From the NCBI GenBank assembly GCA_013822345.1, contig PNKH01000054.1, positions 1 to 51,061 on the forward strand: DNA of 51,061 bases, in the 5' to 3' direction. Shown in pieces: positions 2,689 through 12,717 of this stretch. Positions within the stretch are counted from its first letter, which is position 1; the number at the start of each line of letters is the position of its first letter. Source of the stretch: Isosphaera sp. (GTDB lineage Bacteria > Planctomycetota > Planctomycetia > Gemmatales > Gemmataceae). The translations under genes were made by a program, and so were the position numbers. The notes under the pieces are model-generated. The model saw nothing but the letters and a program-made list of their open reading frames with translations, was not told where the DNA came from and searched no databases.

Positions 2689-5145
2689 CTACATCGGCGG
2701 CCGTTCACCGCCGTACACCAGGAACGCCCGGGGCCGGCCGGCGACCGTCCGGACGATGACGTTCCAACCGGGCTCCAGGTTGACGCGGGTCGGGTCGGTG
2801 ACGGTGGCCCCGCCGTTCACCCGGTACCGGAGCTGGTAGTTGGCCAGCGCCGGGCTGTACCTCGCGCTGACGAGGGTCAGTTGGGCCGGGTAGTTGGTGG
2901 TCACCGGCCCGACCAGCCCGGTGATCCCGTCCCGGGCCGCCGCCCCGGCCGGGGCCGGCTTCCCGCCGATCGCCAGCCCGTACTGGTCGAACAGCTCCTG
3001 GTTCGTCTTCCCGAGCAGCTCCGCCGGGACGAACGCCGGGGCCGTCCCGGCCACGAACGGGACGAAGGACGCGGCCTGCTCCGGGTAGTACAGCTGGAGC
3101 TGCTGGCCGTTGTCGTTGTACTTCGGGGTGTTGATCAGCACCCGGTCCCGGTTGAAGAACCGGGTCAGGTCCTGGAAGTTCGGGTTGTAGTTGGTCACCA
3201 GCTCGACGTCGACGTGGGCCGCCCCACCCGTGCGGAGGGTGCCGAACTGCACGTCCCCGCGGATGTCCACCACCCGGTTCGGGTTGATGGCCGACCGGAC
3301 CACCAGGTCCCGGCGGTTGTTGAACGTCCCGCCCTGGATCACGCTCGTCCCCTGCACCGGGACGTTGATCCCGACCGCGAACCCCTCCACCCGGACGTTG
3401 TCGTAGGTGATGTTCCGGGTCACGTCGTTCCGGTCGATCCCGGTCCCGGCCGGGTTCGCGGTGTTCCCGAACACCCGCACGTTCCGGAGCGTCAGGTTGT
3501 TGGTGTACGGGATGTGGATGCCGCGGGCCGACTTCACGTTCCAGGCGGTGAAGTCCTCGATCAGGCTGGCCCCGGTGTGGGTGGCGTTCAGCAGGGTCTT
3601 CCAGGTCTGGAACCCGGGGCCGGTGGCGTACGCGACGTTCCGCCGGAAGTTGGTGATCGGCACGTCCCGGACCGCGATCGTCGCCTGCCCCTGGGCCAGG
3701 GCCGGGTTGTCCAGGTAGGCGGACACGAACCGCCGGACCCCGAGGCCGGCCTCGTTCAGCCCCTGGTTGAAGAACAGGAACCCGGCCGACCGGGTGCCGA
3801 CCGCGATGTTGTCCTCGACCGTCACCCCGGCCCCCTGGAACCAGAACCCGTGGCCGAGCTGGCCGAAGTCGCCCTGGGCCATCCGGTCCTCGAGGGCCCC
3901 GGCCGTCCCGTTCGCCCGGACCGCGAGGTTCCGGCGGAACGCCCCGACCTCGTCCCCGGCCTCGGTCACGAAACCGGACCCGGTCACGTTGAACGCCACG
4001 TTGTCCTCGAACGAGACCCGGCTGCTGTGGCTCGCGAACCCCCACCCGGGGCTGCCGGACACGACGCTCCCGCGGACCGTCACCAGGTCGGCCGGCTCGA
4101 GCCCGGTCCGGTGGACGTGGAGGGAGTACCGGCCGCGGGGGTTGGTCCCGCCGGACGCCACCTGCCCGCCGGCGTCCAGGACCGGGTCGTCGATCACCCG
4201 GGTCTTGTCCGTCCGGCCGAGGTCGTAGAACCCGGCGAAGGCGACGCTCACGGTCGGCTCGTCCATGAACTCGACGTGCCCGCGGCGGGTCAGGTCGGCC
4301 GGGTTCTGGGACCGGACGGAGACGTTCCGGGTGAGGTTGGCGACGTACAGGGACTGCCCGGCCGGGGCGGCGTGGGCGAACCGGAGCGGGGCGCTGAGGG
4401 TGACAGTGCCCCCGGAGATCGAGGTGATCGTCGTGGTCTCGTCCTGGTTGGCGTTCGGGTTCGTCCCGGTCACCACCAGCCGGTCCCCGACCCGCCACCC
4501 GTCCGGGACGGACGACCCGCCGAACACCAGGGTCGTCTGCCCGGCGGCGGCCGGCTGGGCGAGCGGGGCGTATGCGGTGACGGTCGCCCCGTGCATGCTC
4601 ACCGTCCCGACGGAGATCAGCCCGCGGCTGATCTGGGTCGGGTCCCACTGGGTGTCGATCGGCCCGCGGTCGGCGATGGTGAGGGTGGCCCGGACGTCGG
4701 CCCGGACCGGGTTGGCCGCCGTCCCCATCCGCAGGGTCCCGGTGGAGGTGACGACCATGGTGTCGACCAGCAGCCCGGTGTTCACCGTGGTGGAGAACCG
4801 CAGGGTGCCGTCGACCCGGACGGTCCGGAGGGCGGCGGTGTCGACGTGGGTGACCACGGCCGTCATCCCGGCCGGGATCAGGACGTTGGCGTCGGCCGTC
4901 GGCACCCCGTTGGACCCGTCGGGGCGGACCCACGAGTTCGGGTTCGACCAGCTCCCGCCGCTGACCGCCAGCCGGTGGGTGACGGCCTCGTACGGGACGA
5001 GGTCGATCACCGCCCCGTCGAGCACCACCCGGGCCTCCAGCTCCTCGCACCACACCCGGGCGCGGGGCTTGCCGGCCGCCGGCCGCCGGGCCGGGCCGCC
5101 GCGGACACCCCGGACCCACTTCTGCACCGCCGAGAGGATGGTCAT
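2689..5145 (-). CDS. G8-domain, CEMIP/TMEM2-like right-handed beta-helix protein
   Basis: 818 residues. The ATG at 5145 is preceded by GGAGG nine bases upstream. Basic N-terminus with the motif LEARVVLDG at 36-44, the planctomycete extracellular signature. Residues about 63-190 resemble a G8 domain (GSWSNPNSW at the start, then an isolated-strand pattern ending in VDGTLRF). The remainder reads as a parallel beta-helix with short V-x-N repeats. Eukaryotic proteins of this architecture (CEMIP, TMEM2) act on hyaluronan; bacterial members are uncharacterised, so polysaccharide binding or cleavage is inference. It lies between two other LE-x-R proteins, 170 bases before the metzincin gene and 253 bases after the beta-helix gene, with its own candidate promoter. 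Confidence 0.75.
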   Translation of the reverse strand: MTILSAVQKWVRGVRGGPARRPAAGKPRARVWCEELEARVVLDGAVIDLVPYEAVTHRLAVSGGSWSNPNSWVRPDGSNGVPTADANVLIPAGMTAVVTHVDTAALRTVRVDGTLRFSTTVNTGLLVDTMVVTSTGTLRMGTAANPVRADVRATLTIADRGPIDTQWDPTQISRGLISVGTVSMHGATVTAYAPLAQPAAAGQTTLVFGGSSVPDGWRVGDRLVVTGTNPNANQDETTTITSISGGTVTLSAPLRFAHAAPAGQSLYVANLTRNVSVRSQNPADLTRRGHVEFMDEPTVSVAFAGFYDLGRTDKTRVIDDPVLDAGGQVASGGTNPRGRYSLHVHRTGLEPADLVTVRGSVVSGSPGWGFASHSSRVSFEDNVAFNVTGSGFVTEAGDEVGAFRRNLAVRANGTAGALEDRMAQGDFGQLGHGFWFQGAGVTVEDNIAVGTRSAGFLFFNQGLNEAGLGVRRFVSAYLDNPALAQGQATIAVRDVPITNFRRNVAYATGPGFQTWKTLLNATHTGASLIEDFTAWNVKSARGIHIPYTNNLTLRNVRVFGNTANPAGTGIDRNDVTRNITYDNVRVEGFAVGINVPVQGTSVIQGGTFNNRRDLVVRSAINPNRVVDIRGDVQFGTLRTGGAAHVDVELVTNYNPNFQDLTRFFNRDRVLINTPKYNDNGQQLQLYYPEQAASFVPFVAGTAPAFVPAELLGKTNQELFDQYGLAIGGKPAPAGAAARDGITGLVGPVTTNYPAQLTLVSARYSPALANYQLRYRVNGGATVTDPTRVNLEPGWNVIVRTVAGRPRAFLVYGGERPPM

Positions 5146-5398: not shown

Positions 5399-8300
5399 TC
5401 ACCCGACCTTGGCCAACATGATGTCGTCCAGGAAGGCGGTCGAGTCGCCGCCGACCGTCCCGTCCAGGACGAGCGAGTACGTCCCGGCGGCCGCCACCGT
5501 GAACGTCCCGGTGAACGCCTGGTAGTCGGTCCCGGCCGGGGTGAACGTCCGGGTCGTGCCGGCGAGGCCGGCCCGGACGGTCTGCGGCCCGTCCGGGTTG
5601 GCGTTCCCGCGCTGGGCCGCCCGGAACGTCAGTTCGTAGGTGCCGGGCGCGAGGAACACGGCCTGGCCCACCGACGACTGCCCCTGGAGGAAGGCGACCT
5701 GGGCGCCCTGCGGGGCGGACGGGTTCCCGCCGGTGAACCCGCTCCCGTTCCCGCTCACCCCGGCCGACTCGGAGAACGCCCACGGCCCGCCGGCCGGGGC
5801 GTACCGGAACGACAGGAACTCACCCGCCCCGACGCTCGGGGTCTCGAACCCGGCGTCCCCGAGCACCACCTCGGCCGGCGGCGGGTCGCCGACCGTCACC
5901 GCGAACCGCCGGACCCCGACCGCGTCGTCGGCGTTCCCGGCCACCCCGTCCGGCCCGCGGTCCCTGACCCTCAGGGTGATCACCGCCACCCCCGACTGCC
6001 CGGGCAGCGGGTTGACCGTCACCGTCCGGTTCGACCCCGACCCGCCGAGGACGATCCGGTTGTTCGGGACCACCGCCGGGTTCGACGAGGTGGCCGTCAC
6101 GGTCAGGTTCGCGCCCGGCGTCTCCAGGTCGTTGACGGTGAACGGGATCACACCGGTGCTCCCGCCGACCGGGATCTGCCGGTCGAGGACGGCGTACACC
6201 CGCGGGGACCGGTTCCCGTCCGGCGACCGGAAGTCCAGGAAGATCCGGCGGGTGGTCGACGCCCCGTTCGCGTCCGTGGCGGTCACCTCCAGGCTGACCT
6301 GCCCGGTGGTGTTCGGCTCCGGGGTGAGGGTCAGCGTGCGGTTCGCCCCGGACCCGCCGACCACGATGTTCGCGTCCCGGACGAACTCCGGGTTGAACGA
6401 CCGGGCGGTCACCACGACGCTGCCCGCACCGGAGTTGTCCCCGACCGTCAGTGGGATCACCAGCGGGGTGTTCTTCGTCCCGACCGTCGGGGCGGTCACG
6501 GACGTCGACCCGCCGGAGATCGTCGGCCGCGGGTTGGTGGCGGCCACGGTCAGGAGGAACGACCGCCGGGTCTGGTTCCCGGCCGCGTCAGACACGAACA
6601 CGGTGACGACCGCGTTCCCCGCCCGGTTCGGGGCCGGGGTGACGGTCAGGGTGCGGTTCATCCCGGACCCGCCGAGGACGACCCCGGCCGCCGGCACCAG
6701 GTCCGGGTTGGTGGACGTGGCGGACACGAACAGCGCCCCGCCCGCGGCGTCGCTGACCCCGACGGTGAAGGCGATCGGCCCGGTCGAGGTGTTCTCGTCG
6801 ATGGTCCGGTCGGCCAGGGCACCGGCGACCGGGGGGGAGGTGTCGGGGTCGGCGAGCGGGAGCGCCCCGAGGTACGTCGGCTGGGGCCGGCCGGCGGCGG
6901 CCAGGATGTCGCCCGGCACCGCCCGGAGGTTGGTGCCGCGGTCCGCGGCGACGGTCCCGGCCCGGAGCCGCAGGTTCCCGCCGGCGGCGTTCACGAAGAA
7001 CGGGTCCGGCCCGCCGTCGAACACCAGCTTCCCGGGGCCGGAGGTCGGGGTGTTCAGCTCCCGCCCGAACGCGGCCTTGAAGGATTCGAACTGGGAGAGG
7101 GTGTTGTAGACGAGGTCGGCCCCGGCCCCCGGGTCCCAGGTGAGGAACCGGTCGGCCGCGTCCGCGGTCCAGTACCCGTTGTAGTCCATCCCGGCGACCG
7201 CGGTCGGGGCGGAGTACGGGCGGCCGGTGACCCGGCTGTTCGGTGACGGGTTCCCGTCGGGGAAGGCGGCGGCGTCGAACAGGGTGGTGGCCCGGGTGTT
7301 CGCGAACAGGTTGTTGTAGAAGACGTTGTCGGTGGCCTCCCAGACGGACCCGAGGGAGGCGAACCGGTCGTCCTCCCCGCCCTCGATCGTGTTCCCGTCG
7401 GGGGACGTGTTCGACCCGGTCACCCCCCCGTCCTCGTTCACGTCGTTCACCCGGGTGGTGTCCCGGACCTGGGCGGCGACGTTCGAGTTGAAGAAGGTGT
7501 TGTTGTACACCCGGGTGCCGGACGACCCGGAGACCTGCACCCCCTGGGACGCGCCCCGGGCGACGTTGAACGCCACCACGTTGTCGTGCGAGATCTCGAC
7601 GAAGAACGCGATCCCGCCCCCGACCACGGTGTTGTTCACCACCGCCGCCCGGACGACGTTGATGTCCAGCCACAGGGAGGTGGAGAAGTTGTTCTCGAAC
7701 CGGTTGTTGCGGATCACCAGGTCCTCGGCGCTGGTGATCTTCGTCCCGGCCGCGGACCAGTTGGTGGCGAACCGCTCGACGTTGTTGAACGCGTACGTGT
7801 TCCCGTCCAACAGGAGCCGGTCGGCCCGGCTCGAGCTCCCCCCGACCTGCCCGTTCGCCACCAGCCGGTTGTTCCGGACGACGGTGTCGTCCCCGGTCGC
7901 CGAGTACCCCCGCTGGCCGTTGAAGGTGAACGCGCTGTCCTCCAGCACCAGGCGGCGGGTGGAGTCGTTCGCCCCCACCCCGGCCCGGCCGTAGTACTTG
8001 AACCCGAGGCCCCGGACCGTCACCTCCGCGGCCGTCACGTTCAGCCCCGTCCCGGCCGCCGTCACCTCCACCGTCCGCCCGGCCGCGAACGGGTCGAACC
8101 CGACGTACAGGAAGTTGCCGACGGAGTCGACGAAGAACCGGTCCGGGTCGACCGTCCCGTCCGCCCGGAGCATCAGGGCCAGGTTCGCGGCCGGGTCGGT
8201 GACGGCCGCGAAGTCGGCCGGCGACGTGCCCCCGGTCGGGGCCCCCTCGTCGCTGATCGTCCGCCCGAAGGCGTCGGCGACCGGGACCCCGTTCGGGTCG

Positions 8301-9061
8301 ATGAGCCGGTTGTCGGCGTTCCGCCGGAACCGGTAGGTGGTGGCCGTCGGGGTGCCGCCGGCGTCGACGGTGCGGGTGACGAGGCCGTTCCCGGTCAGCT
8401 CCCGGTACAGCCCGACCTGCTTGACGGGGGTCGGGGCCCCGCCCGTGTTGGTGACGAACACCTGCTCGCCGGCCCCGGCCATCGGGTTGGCGGCAATGTC
8501 GACGTTGTGGAAGTCCAGGTTCTCCGGGAACTCGAAGTTCCGCGGCCCGGACCCGCCGGGGCCGTCCGGGTCGAACCCGGTCGTCCCCATCCGCCAGAAC
8601 GTCCGCTCCCCGATCGCCCCGCCGAGGTCGACCGTCACCTGCTCCCAGTTGGTGACGACGACCGCCCCGTTCAGCCACGGGGTCTCCTGCCGGTACGCCT
8701 GGAGGGTGAGGCGGGCGTCCACGTTGGCGGTCACCCCCCGGTACTCCCCGCCGCGGAGGACGAGGGTCGCCCCGGGGTGGTTGGCGGTGGCGAAGTCGAC
8801 CGCGTCGGTCAGGGTGCGGGGGTTGGTGAGGGTGCCCTCGGCCCCGGTGGTCGGGCCGTCCGGGTTCAGCCCGTCCGGGCTGACATAGATGAGGGTGGTA
8901 CCGGGGTCCCCGGTCTCGGCGTAGTTCGCGTGGGTCGGGATGGCGGTGACGAGCGGGACGCCGACGTAGATGTCGGCGACCGGCACGTCCCGGGCTTCCA
9001 GGCGCTCCGCCCGGAGACTCGTCGGGCGACCGGTCTTCGGCCGGCGGGACCAGTGCGGCAC
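5399..9061 (-). CDS. Large secreted parallel beta-helix protein with Ig-like repeats and C-terminal jelly-roll-like domain
   Basis: 1220 residues starting at GTG 9061, chosen because AGGAG lies seven bases upstream. The planctomycete motif LEARDVPV is at 21-28. Residues about 60-690 are a right-handed beta-helix typical of polysaccharide lyases and carbohydrate-binding surface proteins: an opening of the type GTLTNPRTLTDAVDFA, then many short N-N-x-V/F turns. About 715-1060 hold three or four Ig/cadherin-like modules, each ending in a GGSGxNRTLTVTP signature; the neighbouring GH16 protein has the same signature. About 1080-1220 is a carbohydrate-binding-like jelly roll (GDAGFETP opening, FLDDI ending). 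No catalytic residues can be assigned. It follows the GH16 gene by 54 bases and is probably co-transcribed. Confidence 0.75.
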   Translation of the reverse strand: MPHWSRRPKTGRPTSLRAERLEARDVPVADIYVGVPLVTAIPTHANYAETGDPGTTLIYVSPDGLNPDGPTTGAEGTLTNPRTLTDAVDFATANHPGATLVLRGGEYRGVTANVDARLTLQAYRQETPWLNGAVVVTNWEQVTVDLGGAIGERTFWRMGTTGFDPDGPGGSGPRNFEFPENLDFHNVDIAANPMAGAGEQVFVTNTGGAPTPVKQVGLYRELTGNGLVTRTVDAGGTPTATTYRFRRNADNRLIDPNGVPVADAFGRTISDEGAPTGGTSPADFAAVTDPAANLALMLRADGTVDPDRFFVDSVGNFLYVGFDPFAAGRTVEVTAAGTGLNVTAAEVTVRGLGFKYYGRAGVGANDSTRRLVLEDSAFTFNGQRGYSATGDDTVVRNNRLVANGQVGGSSSRADRLLLDGNTYAFNNVERFATNWSAAGTKITSAEDLVIRNNRFENNFSTSLWLDINVVRAAVVNNTVVGGGIAFFVEISHDNVVAFNVARGASQGVQVSGSSGTRVYNNTFFNSNVAAQVRDTTRVNDVNEDGGVTGSNTSPDGNTIEGGEDDRFASLGSVWEATDNVFYNNLFANTRATTLFDAAAFPDGNPSPNSRVTGRPYSAPTAVAGMDYNGYWTADAADRFLTWDPGAGADLVYNTLSQFESFKAAFGRELNTPTSGPGKLVFDGGPDPFFVNAAGGNLRLRAGTVAADRGTNLRAVPGDILAAAGRPQPTYLGALPLADPDTSPPVAGALADRTIDENTSTGPIAFTVGVSDAAGGALFVSATSTNPDLVPAAGVVLGGSGMNRTLTVTPAPNRAGNAVVTVFVSDAAGNQTRRSFLLTVAATNPRPTISGGSTSVTAPTVGTKNTPLVIPLTVGDNSGAGSVVVTARSFNPEFVRDANIVVGGSGANRTLTLTPEPNTTGQVSLEVTATDANGASTTRRIFLDFRSPDGNRSPRVYAVLDRQIPVGGSTGVIPFTVNDLETPGANLTVTATSSNPAVVPNNRIVLGGSGSNRTVTVNPLPGQSGVAVITLRVRDRGPDGVAGNADDAVGVRRFAVTVGDPPPAEVVLGDAGFETPSVGAGEFLSFRYAPAGGPWAFSESAGVSGNGSGFTGGNPSAPQGAQVAFLQGQSSVGQAVFLAPGTYELTFRAAQRGNANPDGPQTVRAGLAGTTRTFTPAGTDYQAFTGTFTVAAAGTYSLVLDGTVGGDSTAFLDDIMLAKVG

Positions 9062-9115: not shown

Positions 9116-10630
9116 TCAGGCCCGGAACAGGTACAGGTCGTCGAAGTAGCTCTCGCCGGCGGTCGTCGGCTTGTACACGAAGATCGTCGCGGAGGTCGAG
9201 GTCGGGCCGGTGGTGAAGGTCACACTGCCCTGGGCGTAGGAAGTCCCCGAGCGGTTCACCGTCTTCTGCGGCCCGCCGTAGTTCTTCACCCCGATCAGCG
9301 TGCTCGTCCCGGCCACCGTCGTCCGGGCGTACCCGCCGAGGACGTAGGTGGTGTTCGGCTCCAGCCCGGTGATCACCTGTTCCGCCCCGCCGGACCCGAC
9401 GATCCGCAGCGCCTTTCCGCCGGTCCGCGCCCCGGTGGTGGTGAGGGCAGCCCCGCCGTACTTGCCCCAGCCGGTCAGGTCCGACTGGAACCCGCCGTTC
9501 CGGAACGACCCGGCGCTCACCGTCACGGTGAAGGTGTCGCTCCCGCTGACGGTGCCGTTGCCGGCGGTGACCGTGACCGTCGCCGTGCCGGTCACGCCGG
9601 CGGCCGGGGTGACGGTCAGCGTCCGGTTCGCCCCGCTCCCGCCGAGCACGAAGCTCTCCGGCGGCAGCAGGGTCGGGTTCGACGAGGTGAACGTGACGGT
9701 CGTGGGCTGGCCGTCCTTCTGGGTCACCGTCAGCGGGACCGAGAAGCCCCCGGCGGCCTCGTTCAGCACCTGGTTCGGCACGTCCGACACCGGCCGCTGC
9801 CACACCCGGACCCAGTCCACGACCATCTTGGTCTGGCTCGTCGCCAGGCTCCCGTACCCGCCGGCCGGGATGTTGCCGGCCCAGCCGTAGTTCTCCACCT
9901 CAGACGTGAGGTAGATGAACTCGCTCCGGCCGGAGATGGCCTGGGTGGTCGACCACACCTGGGTGCCGTCGATGTAGAACCGATACCCGGTCGGGTCCCA
10001 CTGCATGGCGTAGGTGTGGAAGTTCCCCTGGAGCGGGGTCGACCCGGGGTTGTTCTTCAGCCCGCTGCCCGTGGACTGGTGGTTCGCGCCGTACCCGTCC
10101 CAGTGGAGGTTGGAGACCGTCTTGTTCGAGATGTCCGCCCCGCCCGCGTCGCGCACCCGGTGCTCGACGATGTCGATCTCGGTGCCGGCGGTGTACGGGT
10201 CGCCGAGGGGGCTCCCGATGGTCGGGGAGTGCACCCAGAACGCGGACCACATCCCGGGCGAGTCCTGGAAGTTGATCCGCGCCTCCCAGTACCCGTAGGT
10301 CGCCTGGAACTTGTCCTTGGACCCGACGAACCCGGTGCGGTGGCCGCCGGTCTCGTTGGTGTAGGTGGTGATGGTCAGGTTCCCCCCGCCGACGCTCACC
10401 GCCGCCGGGGTGTTGACCGCGTTGCGGCGGGAGCCGGACGCGGCGGTCCAGACGTCGGTGTCCAGGGCGGTGCCGTTGAACTCGTCGGCGAACACCATCT
10501 GCCAGCCGGTGCCGGGCGGGCTGAGGACGAGCCGGCTCTCCAGCCCCTCGACGCCCTCGGTCCGGAGCGGGGACGGGCGCCGGGTCTTCGGCCGGGCTGA
10601 GGAACTGCGCGAGCGGAGCCATCCGAACAT
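9116..10630 (-). CDS. GH16-family glycoside hydrolase with Ig-like and carbohydrate-binding modules
   Basis: 504 residues; ATG 10630 has GGAG seven bases upstream. N-terminal planctomycete motif LESRLVL at 30-36. The catalytic domain spans about 41-270: an opening FADEFNGTALDTDVW, substrate-cleft WEARI and MWSAFWV segments, and the GH16 signature EIDIVE with Glu151 (nucleophile), Asp153 and Glu156 (acid/base). GH16 enzymes cleave beta-1,3 or beta-1,4 glucans and galactans; which one cannot be read here. An Ig-like module with GGSGANRTLTVTP follows (about 285-365), then a CBM-like beta-sandwich to the end (FDDLYLF). It begins 60 bases after the sigma/FecR/PA14 gene, so that regulator probably shares its transcript. 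Confidence 0.9.
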   Translation of the reverse strand: MFGWLRSRSSSARPKTRRPSPLRTEGVEGLESRLVLSPPGTGWQMVFADEFNGTALDTDVWTAASGSRRNAVNTPAAVSVGGGNLTITTYTNETGGHRTGFVGSKDKFQATYGYWEARINFQDSPGMWSAFWVHSPTIGSPLGDPYTAGTEIDIVEHRVRDAGGADISNKTVSNLHWDGYGANHQSTGSGLKNNPGSTPLQGNFHTYAMQWDPTGYRFYIDGTQVWSTTQAISGRSEFIYLTSEVENYGWAGNIPAGGYGSLATSQTKMVVDWVRVWQRPVSDVPNQVLNEAAGGFSVPLTVTQKDGQPTTVTFTSSNPTLLPPESFVLGGSGANRTLTVTPAAGVTGTATVTVTAGNGTVSGSDTFTVTVSAGSFRNGGFQSDLTGWGKYGGAALTTTGARTGGKALRIVGSGGAEQVITGLEPNTTYVLGGYARTTVAGTSTLIGVKNYGGPQKTVNRSGTSYAQGSVTFTTGPTSTSATIFVYKPTTAGESYFDDLYLFRA

Positions 10631-10690: not shown

Positions 10691-12640
10691 TTACTTCACC
10701 GGGTCGGGCGTATCAACGCGACTCAGCCGCCGCCCGGGGATCGGCCACTCCCGGGTGCCGTCCGGGAGCGTCCACCCGACGGACAGGTGGTCGCCCAGGA
10801 CGGCCTGCCAGTGGAGGGCCTCCAGGTAGTAGGACCGGCCGGCCTCCAGCCGCACCGGGGCGGACACCTGCGACGGGTGGGCGGTCCACTCCCGGACCCC
10901 GGTCCGCAACGGGACCGAGGCGATCACCCGCTTCCCGGCCGGCGCCGGGCCGTTGGCGAGGGACAGGCGGACCTGGTCGTCCCCGGCGACTCGGAACGTG
11001 TACGCCCCGGTCTGCGGGGCGCGGACCACGGCGGCGACCCGGGAGCCGTACCGGTCCGCCCGGGCGCGCCGACCGAACTCGAACGCGGGCAGGTACTCCC
11101 GGCCGTCCGGGAGGCCGGCGGCGAACGGCGGGTGGGCGATCAGGTTGTCGAGGTTCTTCCCCTTCCCGGCGACCCCCAGCCAGAACTCCCGCAGCACCGG
11201 CTTGTCCGGGTCCAGGGCGCCGGGCGCGGGCAACCGGCCGCCGTCGAACACGACGGCTTCCGGGGCTGCCCCGCGGCGCGGCAGGGCGAGTGCCTCCAAC
11301 CCGCCGGCCCGCCGCGGGGCGGCCCCGGCCGCCCGGGCCTCGACCGCCCCGACGAACACGTGCGCCTCGGCCCGCCCGTCCGAAGCCCGCACCCCGAACT
11401 CCGTCCCGAGGTCGACGAAGTCGCCGTTCGCCGTCCGGACGGTGAACCCCTCCGCCCCGGCCGGCACGGTGGCGGTCAGCGCGCCGTCGGCCAGCAGCAC
11501 CCGGCCGCCGGTCTCGGGGGTGAACGCGGCCGGCCCCTCCACCAGCGCCACCGCCCCGCCGTCGAACGCCACCTTCGCCAGGCCCGCCTTCAGCCGCACC
11601 GCCCGCCCGGCCGCCAGCCGGGCCCCGACCTTCGGGACCGCCTCCCCTTTCCCGACCTCCCACCGGTCCCCGCGCACCGCCTCCACGGTGGCGACGAGGA
11701 CGACCGGCTGGGCCGGCGGGGGAGGGGGCGTGTCCGGGGCCTTGGCGACCGGCCGCGGCGCCGGCCGCAGGAGGAGCGCCACCCCGACCAGCACCGCGGC
11801 AGCCGCGGCGGCCGGCACGACCCAGCGGGGGAGCGGTCGCGCGGCCCCGCGGCCCGCCCGGCTCCCCGCCTTCGGGCCGAACGTGAGCGGGGCGCCCGGC
11901 TCGGGCGCCGCCTCTTCGGCCGGGGTCGGCGGGGCCGCGAACAGGGCGCGGGTGAGGAACCGCAGGCAGACCGTGTCGGCCATGTGCCGGGCGTACGCCC
12001 GCCGGGCCGCCGGGCTCGCGGCCAACAGCCCGGCGAGTTCGGCCGCCGCGTCGCCGGCGGTCAGGCGGTGACACGCCTCGGCCACCGGCGCCGGCTCGGC
12101 GGCGGGGTCCTCGCGGCCGAGCCGGTGGCGGACGCACTCCCGCAATTGCTTCCGGATCTGCGACAGGGTGGTGTGGACGGACGCGGCCGGGCGGGCGGTC
12201 AGGCGGGCCGCCTCGCCCGCCGACTTCCCCTCCCCGTAGACCATGTCGACCAGGGCCCGCCAGGTCGGGGGGAGCCGGTCGACGCACTCACGTAGCGCGT
12301 CGCGCCGCTCCTCCAGCTCGCCGGCCGCCTCGGCCGCCGGCCCGGCCAACTGGTCGAGCAGGTCGGGGTCGAACTGCACCCGGGCCTTCCGCCGGCGGCG
12401 GAACGACAGGACCTCGTAGTGGGCGACGGTGCAGGCCCAGCGGACGAAGTCCGAGCCGGGCCGGTACCTGCCGAACCCCTGCCAGAGCTTGACCCCGACC
12501 TCCTGGATGATGTCGTCCGCGTCCGACCAGTTCGGGACCAGGCAGAAGACGTACCCGAACACCGCACGGTAGTGCTTGGCGAACAGCCGGGCGAAGTCCG
12601 ACCCGGGGTCGCCCCCGGCCGGCGGTTGCGGGGAAACCAA
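10691..12640 (-). CDS. ECF sigma factor fused to anti-sigma-like linker, transmembrane helix, FecR and PA14 domains
   Basis: 649 residues in one frame. The start is TTG 12640 with GGAGG five bases before it. Residues 17-82 are sigma region 2 (ADDIIQEVGVKLW), 110-175 sigma region 4 (LPPTWRALVDMVYGEGKSAGEAA), as in the Rhodopirellula/Verrucomicrobium ECF type. About 185-235 resembles the cytosolic start of planctomycete FecR anti-sigmas (ELAGLLAASPAARRAYA). A membrane helix spans 273-292. A FecR domain spans about 315-435 (VDLGTEFGV at 409-417) and a PA14-like domain about 520-640 (TGAYTFRVAGDDQVRL). Usually the sigma factor and the FecR protein are two genes. Here the sigma factor would be membrane-tethered, with a sugar-binding-type domain outside, suggesting release by proteolysis (inference). 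It heads the GH16/beta-helix run. Confidence 0.85.
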   Translation of the reverse strand: MVSPQPPAGGDPGSDFARLFAKHYRAVFGYVFCLVPNWSDADDIIQEVGVKLWQGFGRYRPGSDFVRWACTVAHYEVLSFRRRRKARVQFDPDLLDQLAGPAAEAAGELEERRDALRECVDRLPPTWRALVDMVYGEGKSAGEAARLTARPAASVHTTLSQIRKQLRECVRHRLGREDPAAEPAPVAEACHRLTAGDAAAELAGLLAASPAARRAYARHMADTVCLRFLTRALFAAPPTPAEEAAPEPGAPLTFGPKAGSRAGRGAARPLPRWVVPAAAAAAVLVGVALLLRPAPRPVAKAPDTPPPPPAQPVVLVATVEAVRGDRWEVGKGEAVPKVGARLAAGRAVRLKAGLAKVAFDGGAVALVEGPAAFTPETGGRVLLADGALTATVPAGAEGFTVRTANGDFVDLGTEFGVRASDGRAEAHVFVGAVEARAAGAAPRRAGGLEALALPRRGAAPEAVVFDGGRLPAPGALDPDKPVLREFWLGVAGKGKNLDNLIAHPPFAAGLPDGREYLPAFEFGRRARADRYGSRVAAVVRAPQTGAYTFRVAGDDQVRLSLANGPAPAGKRVIASVPLRTGVREWTAHPSQVSAPVRLEAGRSYYLEALHWQAVLGDHLSVGWTLPDGTREWPIPGRRLSRVDTPDPVK

Positions 12641-12717
12641 CGCGACCTCCGGCGCCGCGGTTTGGCGAACGGGGCTGACGTGAGCCGTGCCCGACCTGCG
12701 AGTCGGTCAGGTACACC

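Follow-up and report, generated by a model that had tools for sequence, protein, structure and literature searches.

IutY of Pseudomonas putida is a one-piece sigma/anti-sigma protein from which Prc and RseP release an N-terminal piece of about 23 kDa (PMC5411451). According to a review, IutY belongs to ECF243 and is the only ECF sigma factor for which activation of this kind has been characterized experimentally, and ECF36, ECF48, ECF52, and ECF53 are among the groups expected to be activated likewise (PMC8999054). For ECF52, proteolytic release has been proposed, and the group is stated to occur exclusively in Actinobacteria (PMC5826349). In a clostridial RsgI anti-sigma factor, PA14 is reported to recognize pectin (PMC12203970). 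The norm for FecR-type anti-sigma factors is a separate gene adjoining that of the sigma factor.

Here we describe a gene of Isosphaera sp. that departs from this norm and encodes both partners in one frame. Like IutY, the fused protein is a single chain in which an N-terminal ECF sigma factor is followed by one membrane segment and then by an anti-sigma part in the periplasm (PMC5411451). IutY is described as having a single membrane segment alone between sigma and the periplasmic anti-sigma part, whereas in our structure model about 100 cytosolic residues, including anti-sigma-like helices at residues 184-230, separate the sigma domain from the membrane helix. IutY is described as responding to an iron carrier via the IutA receptor; the fused protein has an added PA14 domain. 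IutY-type hybrids have a TonB-dependent receptor gene as a neighbor; none was found among the 12 distinct window frames scanned, out of many. The fused protein also resembles ECF52 SCO4117 of Streptomyces coelicolor; in ECF52, a sigma factor, an anti-sigma-type domain, a membrane helix, a proline-rich stretch, and a carbohydrate-binding domain occur together (PMC5826349). In contrast, ECF52 has a zinc finger and another carbohydrate-binding module, and the fused protein has PA14, for which sugar binding is putative. Pfam listed no zf-HC2 match in the fused protein up to an E value of 1; zf-HC2 matches occurred in 4 of 28 aligned members (best, 2.7e-4). The RsgI proteins of Clostridium thermocellum are likewise anti-sigma factors anchored in the membrane; they carry a sensor on the outside (PA14 in one of them) and signal through a proteolytic cascade with RseP, but their sigma factor, of the sigma-I type, has a separate gene, and they contain an autocleaving periplasmic domain (PMC12203970). 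Split sigma/FecR pairs of Planctomycetota and Verrucomicrobiota share the sigma family and the anti-sigma layout; they differ in consisting of two genes (overlapping or stop separated) and in carrying outside domains such as LamG_3 or CBM96 instead of PA14. Since one IutY feature (the lone membrane segment) and one ECF52 feature (the zinc finger) fail, we file the fused protein as a planctomycete-built variant of the known one-piece sigma/anti-sigma proteins. We found no description of a planctomycete sigma-FecR fusion in the literature searched, which lay largely outside subscription journals.

Frame, domain order, and topology of the fused gene

The fused gene lies on contig C54 of a 7.47-Mb genome in 226 contigs, within the window (the whole stretch of DNA that was analyzed, 51,061 nucleotides). 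It is on the minus strand; the initial annotation had given no strand. Translation of positions 10691-12640 yielded 649 residues with no internal stops, inside a full open frame of 671 codons (Table 1). Pfam matched Sigma70_r2 (residues 19-86, 9.3e-13), Sigma70_r4_2 (114-166, 1.7e-7), FecR (380-434, 7.3e-6), and PA14 (524-631, 4e-9), all above the curated cut-offs. The TIGR02989 profile scored 142.5 bits against a cut-off of 124.55 and was covered from position 2 to 158 of 158, and FecR (PF04773), which follows one membrane helix, scored 26.8 bits against a cut-off of 24. These results agree with the initial annotation, which had read one uninterrupted frame with sigma, an anti-sigma-like segment, a membrane helix, FecR, and PA14.

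TABLE 1 Window coordinates of the fused gene, its parts, and the genes downstream
Feature	Position	Strand	Basis or remark
Fused gene, ECF sigma/anti-sigma-like segment/TM/FecR/PA14	10691..12640	-	649 aa, TTG start
Putative ribosome-binding site GGAGG	12646..12650	-	5 bases 5' of TTG, read from sequence
ECF sigma factor TIGR02989, residues 15-170	12131..12598	-	NCBIfam match
Junction, codons 171-186	12083..12130	-	Lacks an RTGA overlap and an in-frame stop; last codon (186) is GTG, a possible internal start
GAGG, codon 177 plus one base	12109..12112	-	Site where split relatives have the anti-sigma Shine-Dalgarno
Anti-sigma-like cytosolic helices, residues 184-230	11951..12091	-	Alignment to separate anti-sigma N termini, predicted helices
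Membrane helix, residues 274-290	11771..11821	-	Hydropathy, structure model
Beta-rich FecR part, residues 315-437	11330..11698	-	Pfam match at 380-434, structure model
PA14 domain, residues 524-631	10748..11071	-	Pfam
GH16 + CBM_4_9 gene	9116..10630	-	60 bp after fused gene; Pfam; putative operon member
Right-handed beta-helix gene, cadherin-like and bacterial Ig domains	5399..9061	-	54 bp after GH16; Pfam; putative operon member
G8 domain + CEMIP-type beta-helix protein	2689..5145	-	After beta-helix gene

A single strong hydrophobic stretch peaked at residues 273-291, with a mean hydropathy of 2.42 compared with 1.07 for the best window elsewhere. Five Arg/Lys residues lie in the 20 residues before the membrane helix and two lie after it, a charge pattern that is the signature expected of an inside N terminus. 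The structure model was built from a 28-row alignment and covers residues 1-470, with the PA14 part left out (mean pLDDT, 82.6; pTM, 0.57). In the model, ten-residue blocks of the sigma part (residues 11-170) reached a pLDDT of 84 to 97. Helices were predicted at residues 184-193, 199-208, and 210-230, with block means of 81 to 95 across residues 184-230, and residues 233-269 fell below 50. The membrane helix follows at residues 274-290 and then the beta-rich part at 315-437. Alignment and model together suggest that residues 184-230 are anti-sigma-like, with a putative role in inhibiting sigma. The initial annotation had also proposed a membrane-tethered sigma factor that must be released; tethering and a need for release are indeed expected, because sigma forms one chain with a membrane protein of the anti-sigma type that bears the inside-N signature.

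A terminator-like stem at window positions 12641-12659 on the minus strand overlies the GGAGG site before the TTG. Four such sites occur in the region compared with 2.4 expected, and this one possibly arose by chance.

The junction in split relatives and in the fused gene

In the relatives compared, the sigma and membrane FecR parts are two adjoining genes, and the fused protein aligns through both halves with these split pairs. The best-matching paralogue in its own genome (L002) is split, with a GTGA overlap. We found that the downstream start overlaps the sigma stop by 4 bases (ATGA or GTGA; RTGA) in 39 of 44 loci from the same taxonomic family, the 44 being those with a sigma stop, some of which may have a partner other than FecR. 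In 29 of the 39, a Shine-Dalgarno core lies no more than 16 bases upstream of the overlap start, within the last sigma codons. The anti-sigma Shine-Dalgarno site often falls inside the sigma tail and there encodes a recurrent R-E-G-like ending (L002-L052).

We searched profile A1, made from the fused protein and five joined pairs, in 102 genomes of the order, 397 of the class, and 392 of the phylum. These sets overlap; the number of candidates scored per genome was about 17, 4, and 4, respectively, and only same-frame pairs can yield spanning rows. Spanning rows, counted by hand among the matches listed as those that begin no later than profile position 20 and end no earlier than position 380, numbered 3, 74, and 40. 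One stop-free row per set was the fused gene itself. No other stop-free spanning row was found among the matches listed, each of the rest having at least one stop (2/2, 73/73, and 39/39). All 20 in-frame pairs picked for having one stop showed an in-frame start 0 to 11 codons past it. In these Planctomycetota pairs (L087-L106), the anti-sigma start sits in frame right behind the sigma stop, one point mutation short of fusion, and 20/20 retain the stop.

A further scan covered GTDB 220 contigs, a collection from which the fused gene's own genome is possibly absent; 80 of 175 confirmed relatives were examined. A FecR frame adjoined the sigma frame at 34 of the 80 loci, and none of the 34 was a fusion: 32 were out of frame and 2 were in frame behind a stop. 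As a positive control, the same profiles detected both halves in a single frame in the fused gene. Close relatives of the fused protein were also sought in these contigs, where 14 stretches matched the pattern and none was confirmed. The fusion is a singleton among the genomes examined, and since no other genome examined has it, there is no sign of its retention by selection.

The outside domains vary among seven anti-sigma frames of relatives: LamG_3 was above its cut-off in two, CBM96 was matched in four (one above cut-off), and FecR stood alone in one. A FecR paralogue in the fused gene's own genome lies at the distal end of an open frame of 1753 codons (L066:9187-14448), which is probably open upstream by chance and not one protein. 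A 596-codon frame (G067:C252), considered as a second fusion, was dropped; stops separate its halves. We discarded a mixed alignment (A2) of separate sigma and anti-sigma rows, in which the anti-sigma N termini landed on the sigma part. The simple gene caller picked shadow frames in the window, and its calls were used only at other loci.

If the G+C-rich junction had been missequenced or misassembled, the organism would have the two genes that the examined relatives have. About 1.1% of off-frame codons are stops, and 100 codons stay open off-frame with a probability of about 0.32. Because off-frame stops are this rare at high G+C, an error would leave the frame open, and an uninterrupted frame carries little weight on its own. 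The case for the fused frame therefore rests on homology on both sides and on codon usage across the junction. RTGA is absent from codons 150-230. We scanned all 1,080 single-base changes in codons 161-205 (135 deletions, 540 insertions, and 405 substitutions; larger errors fall outside the scan) and found that none restored the family-typical 4-base overlap. A sigma stop before codon 217 did result from 97/135 deletions, 12/540 insertions, and 11/405 substitutions (120/1,080 altogether). The commonest split of this kind (76 changes) had a 25-base overlap, with sigma ending at codon 193 and GTG at codon 186, and one error could produce other split layouts as well. However, the 20 bases before this GTG contain no GGAG, GAGG, or AGGA.

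Codon usage likewise speaks against an error. At codons 176-186, the fused frame scored +11.6 bits of codon log-odds and the other frames scored -5.0 and -20.6; the reverse sign occurs in 1.3% of true coding windows, and the margin is below that of 89% of them. The fused frame had the top score in all 18 ten-codon windows over codons 150-244, narrowly so at codons 190-199 (0.7 vs -0.6 bits), which together with codons 165-174 scored weakest. The assembly itself has no visible error burden, since rpoB runs uninterrupted through a frame of 1257 codons and the two contigs that share rpoC show no stops in its pieces. We think that the fusion is real, because no single-base change restored the overlap and codon usage favors the fused frame; an error at the junction is, in our estimate, rather unlikely. 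The GAGG at codons 177-178 may be a relic of the anti-sigma Shine-Dalgarno; this is a hint only, because 12.9% of 30-base coding windows here contain GAGG (24% contain a GGAG, GAGG, or AGGA core).

The initial annotation had held that sigma and FecR/anti-sigma are normally separate proteins, as we found in the examined relatives, beside the one-piece precedents IutY and ECF52. It had also named relatives that always have two genes as grounds for rejecting a fusion. The examined spanning matches and pairs correspond to this in letter. We read the two-gene state of the relatives as suggesting a rare or recent fusion, not an artifact, and it lowers our confidence. The search for the same architecture among planctomycetes that it had called for, run here on genomes, recovered the fused gene and no second stop-free case among the matches listed.

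Divergence and proposed release of the sigma factor

We built one tree for each half from 49 pairs and the fused protein. By path, L108 was the nearest row in the sigma tree and L107 in the FecR tree; neither tree had a well-supported set of at most half of the rows that included the fused protein. Its branches are long (1.24 and 1.72 in the two trees). Given the adjacency of the two genes in relatives, the simple reading is that both halves would derive from one ancestral pair.

We consider it moderately probable that such a pair fused into a membrane-tethered, self-inhibited sigma factor that is freed by proteolysis after an outside signal. According to this model, an ancestral planctomycete pair (an ECF sigma gene, then a gene for a membrane FecR-type anti-sigma factor) would have merged through a minor alteration where the stop of one gene meets the start of the next, giving a sigma factor permanently linked to the part that inhibits it and anchors it in the membrane. 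As long as the protein is intact, sigma would stay at the membrane, the anti-sigma-like helices lying beside its domains. An outside ligand, probably a glycan or surface ligand, would act on PA14 via the FecR domain and expose the protein to a site 1 protease and then to a site 2 intramembrane protease. Trimming of the cytosolic piece would then free sigma, which would activate its own gene and perhaps also the adjoining secreted GH16 and beta-helix genes. In this model, we infer the inhibition in cis, the proteolytic steps, the ligand, and the targets.

By analogy, regulated intramembrane proteolysis as shown for IutY is the likely release route. Consistently with this, the genome has M50 matches, candidate site 2 proteases, in six frames, and five S41 protease matches. 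One of the M50 frames, of 964 codons, has a split match, which we take to resemble RseP-like proteins. A carbohydrate or surface sensor is a natural guess for the outside domain, because PA14 reportedly recognizes pectin in a clostridial RsgI and LamG_3 and CBM96 occur in the relatives' anti-sigma frames. It is possible, although we hold this more specific version only tentatively, that PA14 senses a polysaccharide, that proteolysis then frees the attached sigma factor, and that sigma turns on the neighboring genes for the secreted GH16 and beta-helix proteins. In this version, the gene would have originated from a collapsed translational-coupling overlap, and fusion could fix the one-to-one dose of sigma and anti-sigma.

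The fused gene could also be real but an accidental, decaying paralogue whose product is tethered and silent. It was a singleton in our searches and has long branches, and of the 27 sigma positions with 80% identity or more across the other 27 rows, 6 are changed; in the alignment, its first anti-sigma helix is shorter than that of its relatives. Divergence and the shortened helix would fit either decay or weak inhibition. In contrast, every domain scored above its curated cut-off, the other 21 of the 27 positions are retained, and the start is intact with its GGAGG, and we regard decay as unlikely. Very unlikely is a second product, a separate anti-sigma factor started at GTG codon 186 that would keep a spare inhibitor beside the full-length protein: this in-frame GTG lies near the usual beginning of anti-sigma genes, but the 20 bases preceding it lack a Shine-Dalgarno core, the end of the GAGG is 23 bases upstream of it, and translation begun at this codon would truncate the first anti-sigma helix.

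If the more specific, polysaccharide-sensing version is correct, it would be a one-protein, glycan-gated sigma switch, undescribed in Planctomycetota in the literature searched. The fused protein would also be an independent case of covalent sigma control, one that combines a PA14 sensor with an anti-sigma segment in the cytosol. Planctomycetes hold many sigma/FecR pairs, and the natural fusion settles partner identity for this pair. It offers a single taggable protein for following tethering, cleavage, and signal, as IutY does for iron signaling.

Downstream genes and candidate targets

The GH16 and beta-helix genes each have GGAG before the start, and we found no terminator-like site in the 60- and 54-bp gaps after the fused gene and GH16. 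The close same-strand spacing supports cotranscription of the fused gene, GH16, and the beta-helix gene. This same-strand proximity is the sole basis on which the latter two are candidate targets of sigma. Of nine loci with a FecR frame for which neighbors were listed, three (L065, L069, and L074) are followed directly by a large gene on the same strand. None of these three genes is GH16; they are of the DUF1549/DUF1553 type, the DUF7133 type with a GDSL lipase, and the DUF1592 type. Synteny thus lends no support to GH16 as a target, since no GH16 was found at the scanned loci.

A short N-terminal LE-R stretch is common to the products of 9116-10630 (LESRLVL), 5399-9061 (LEARDVP), and 2689-5145 (LEARVVL). 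NCBIfam had no match at this stretch in the three proteins; it presumably recalls planctomycete sorting signals. Before the G8/CEMIP gene, we found a sigma-70-like promoter match of 10/12 at 5353-5326 (0.0 expected; standard deviation, 0.2), which suggests that this gene may have a promoter of its own.
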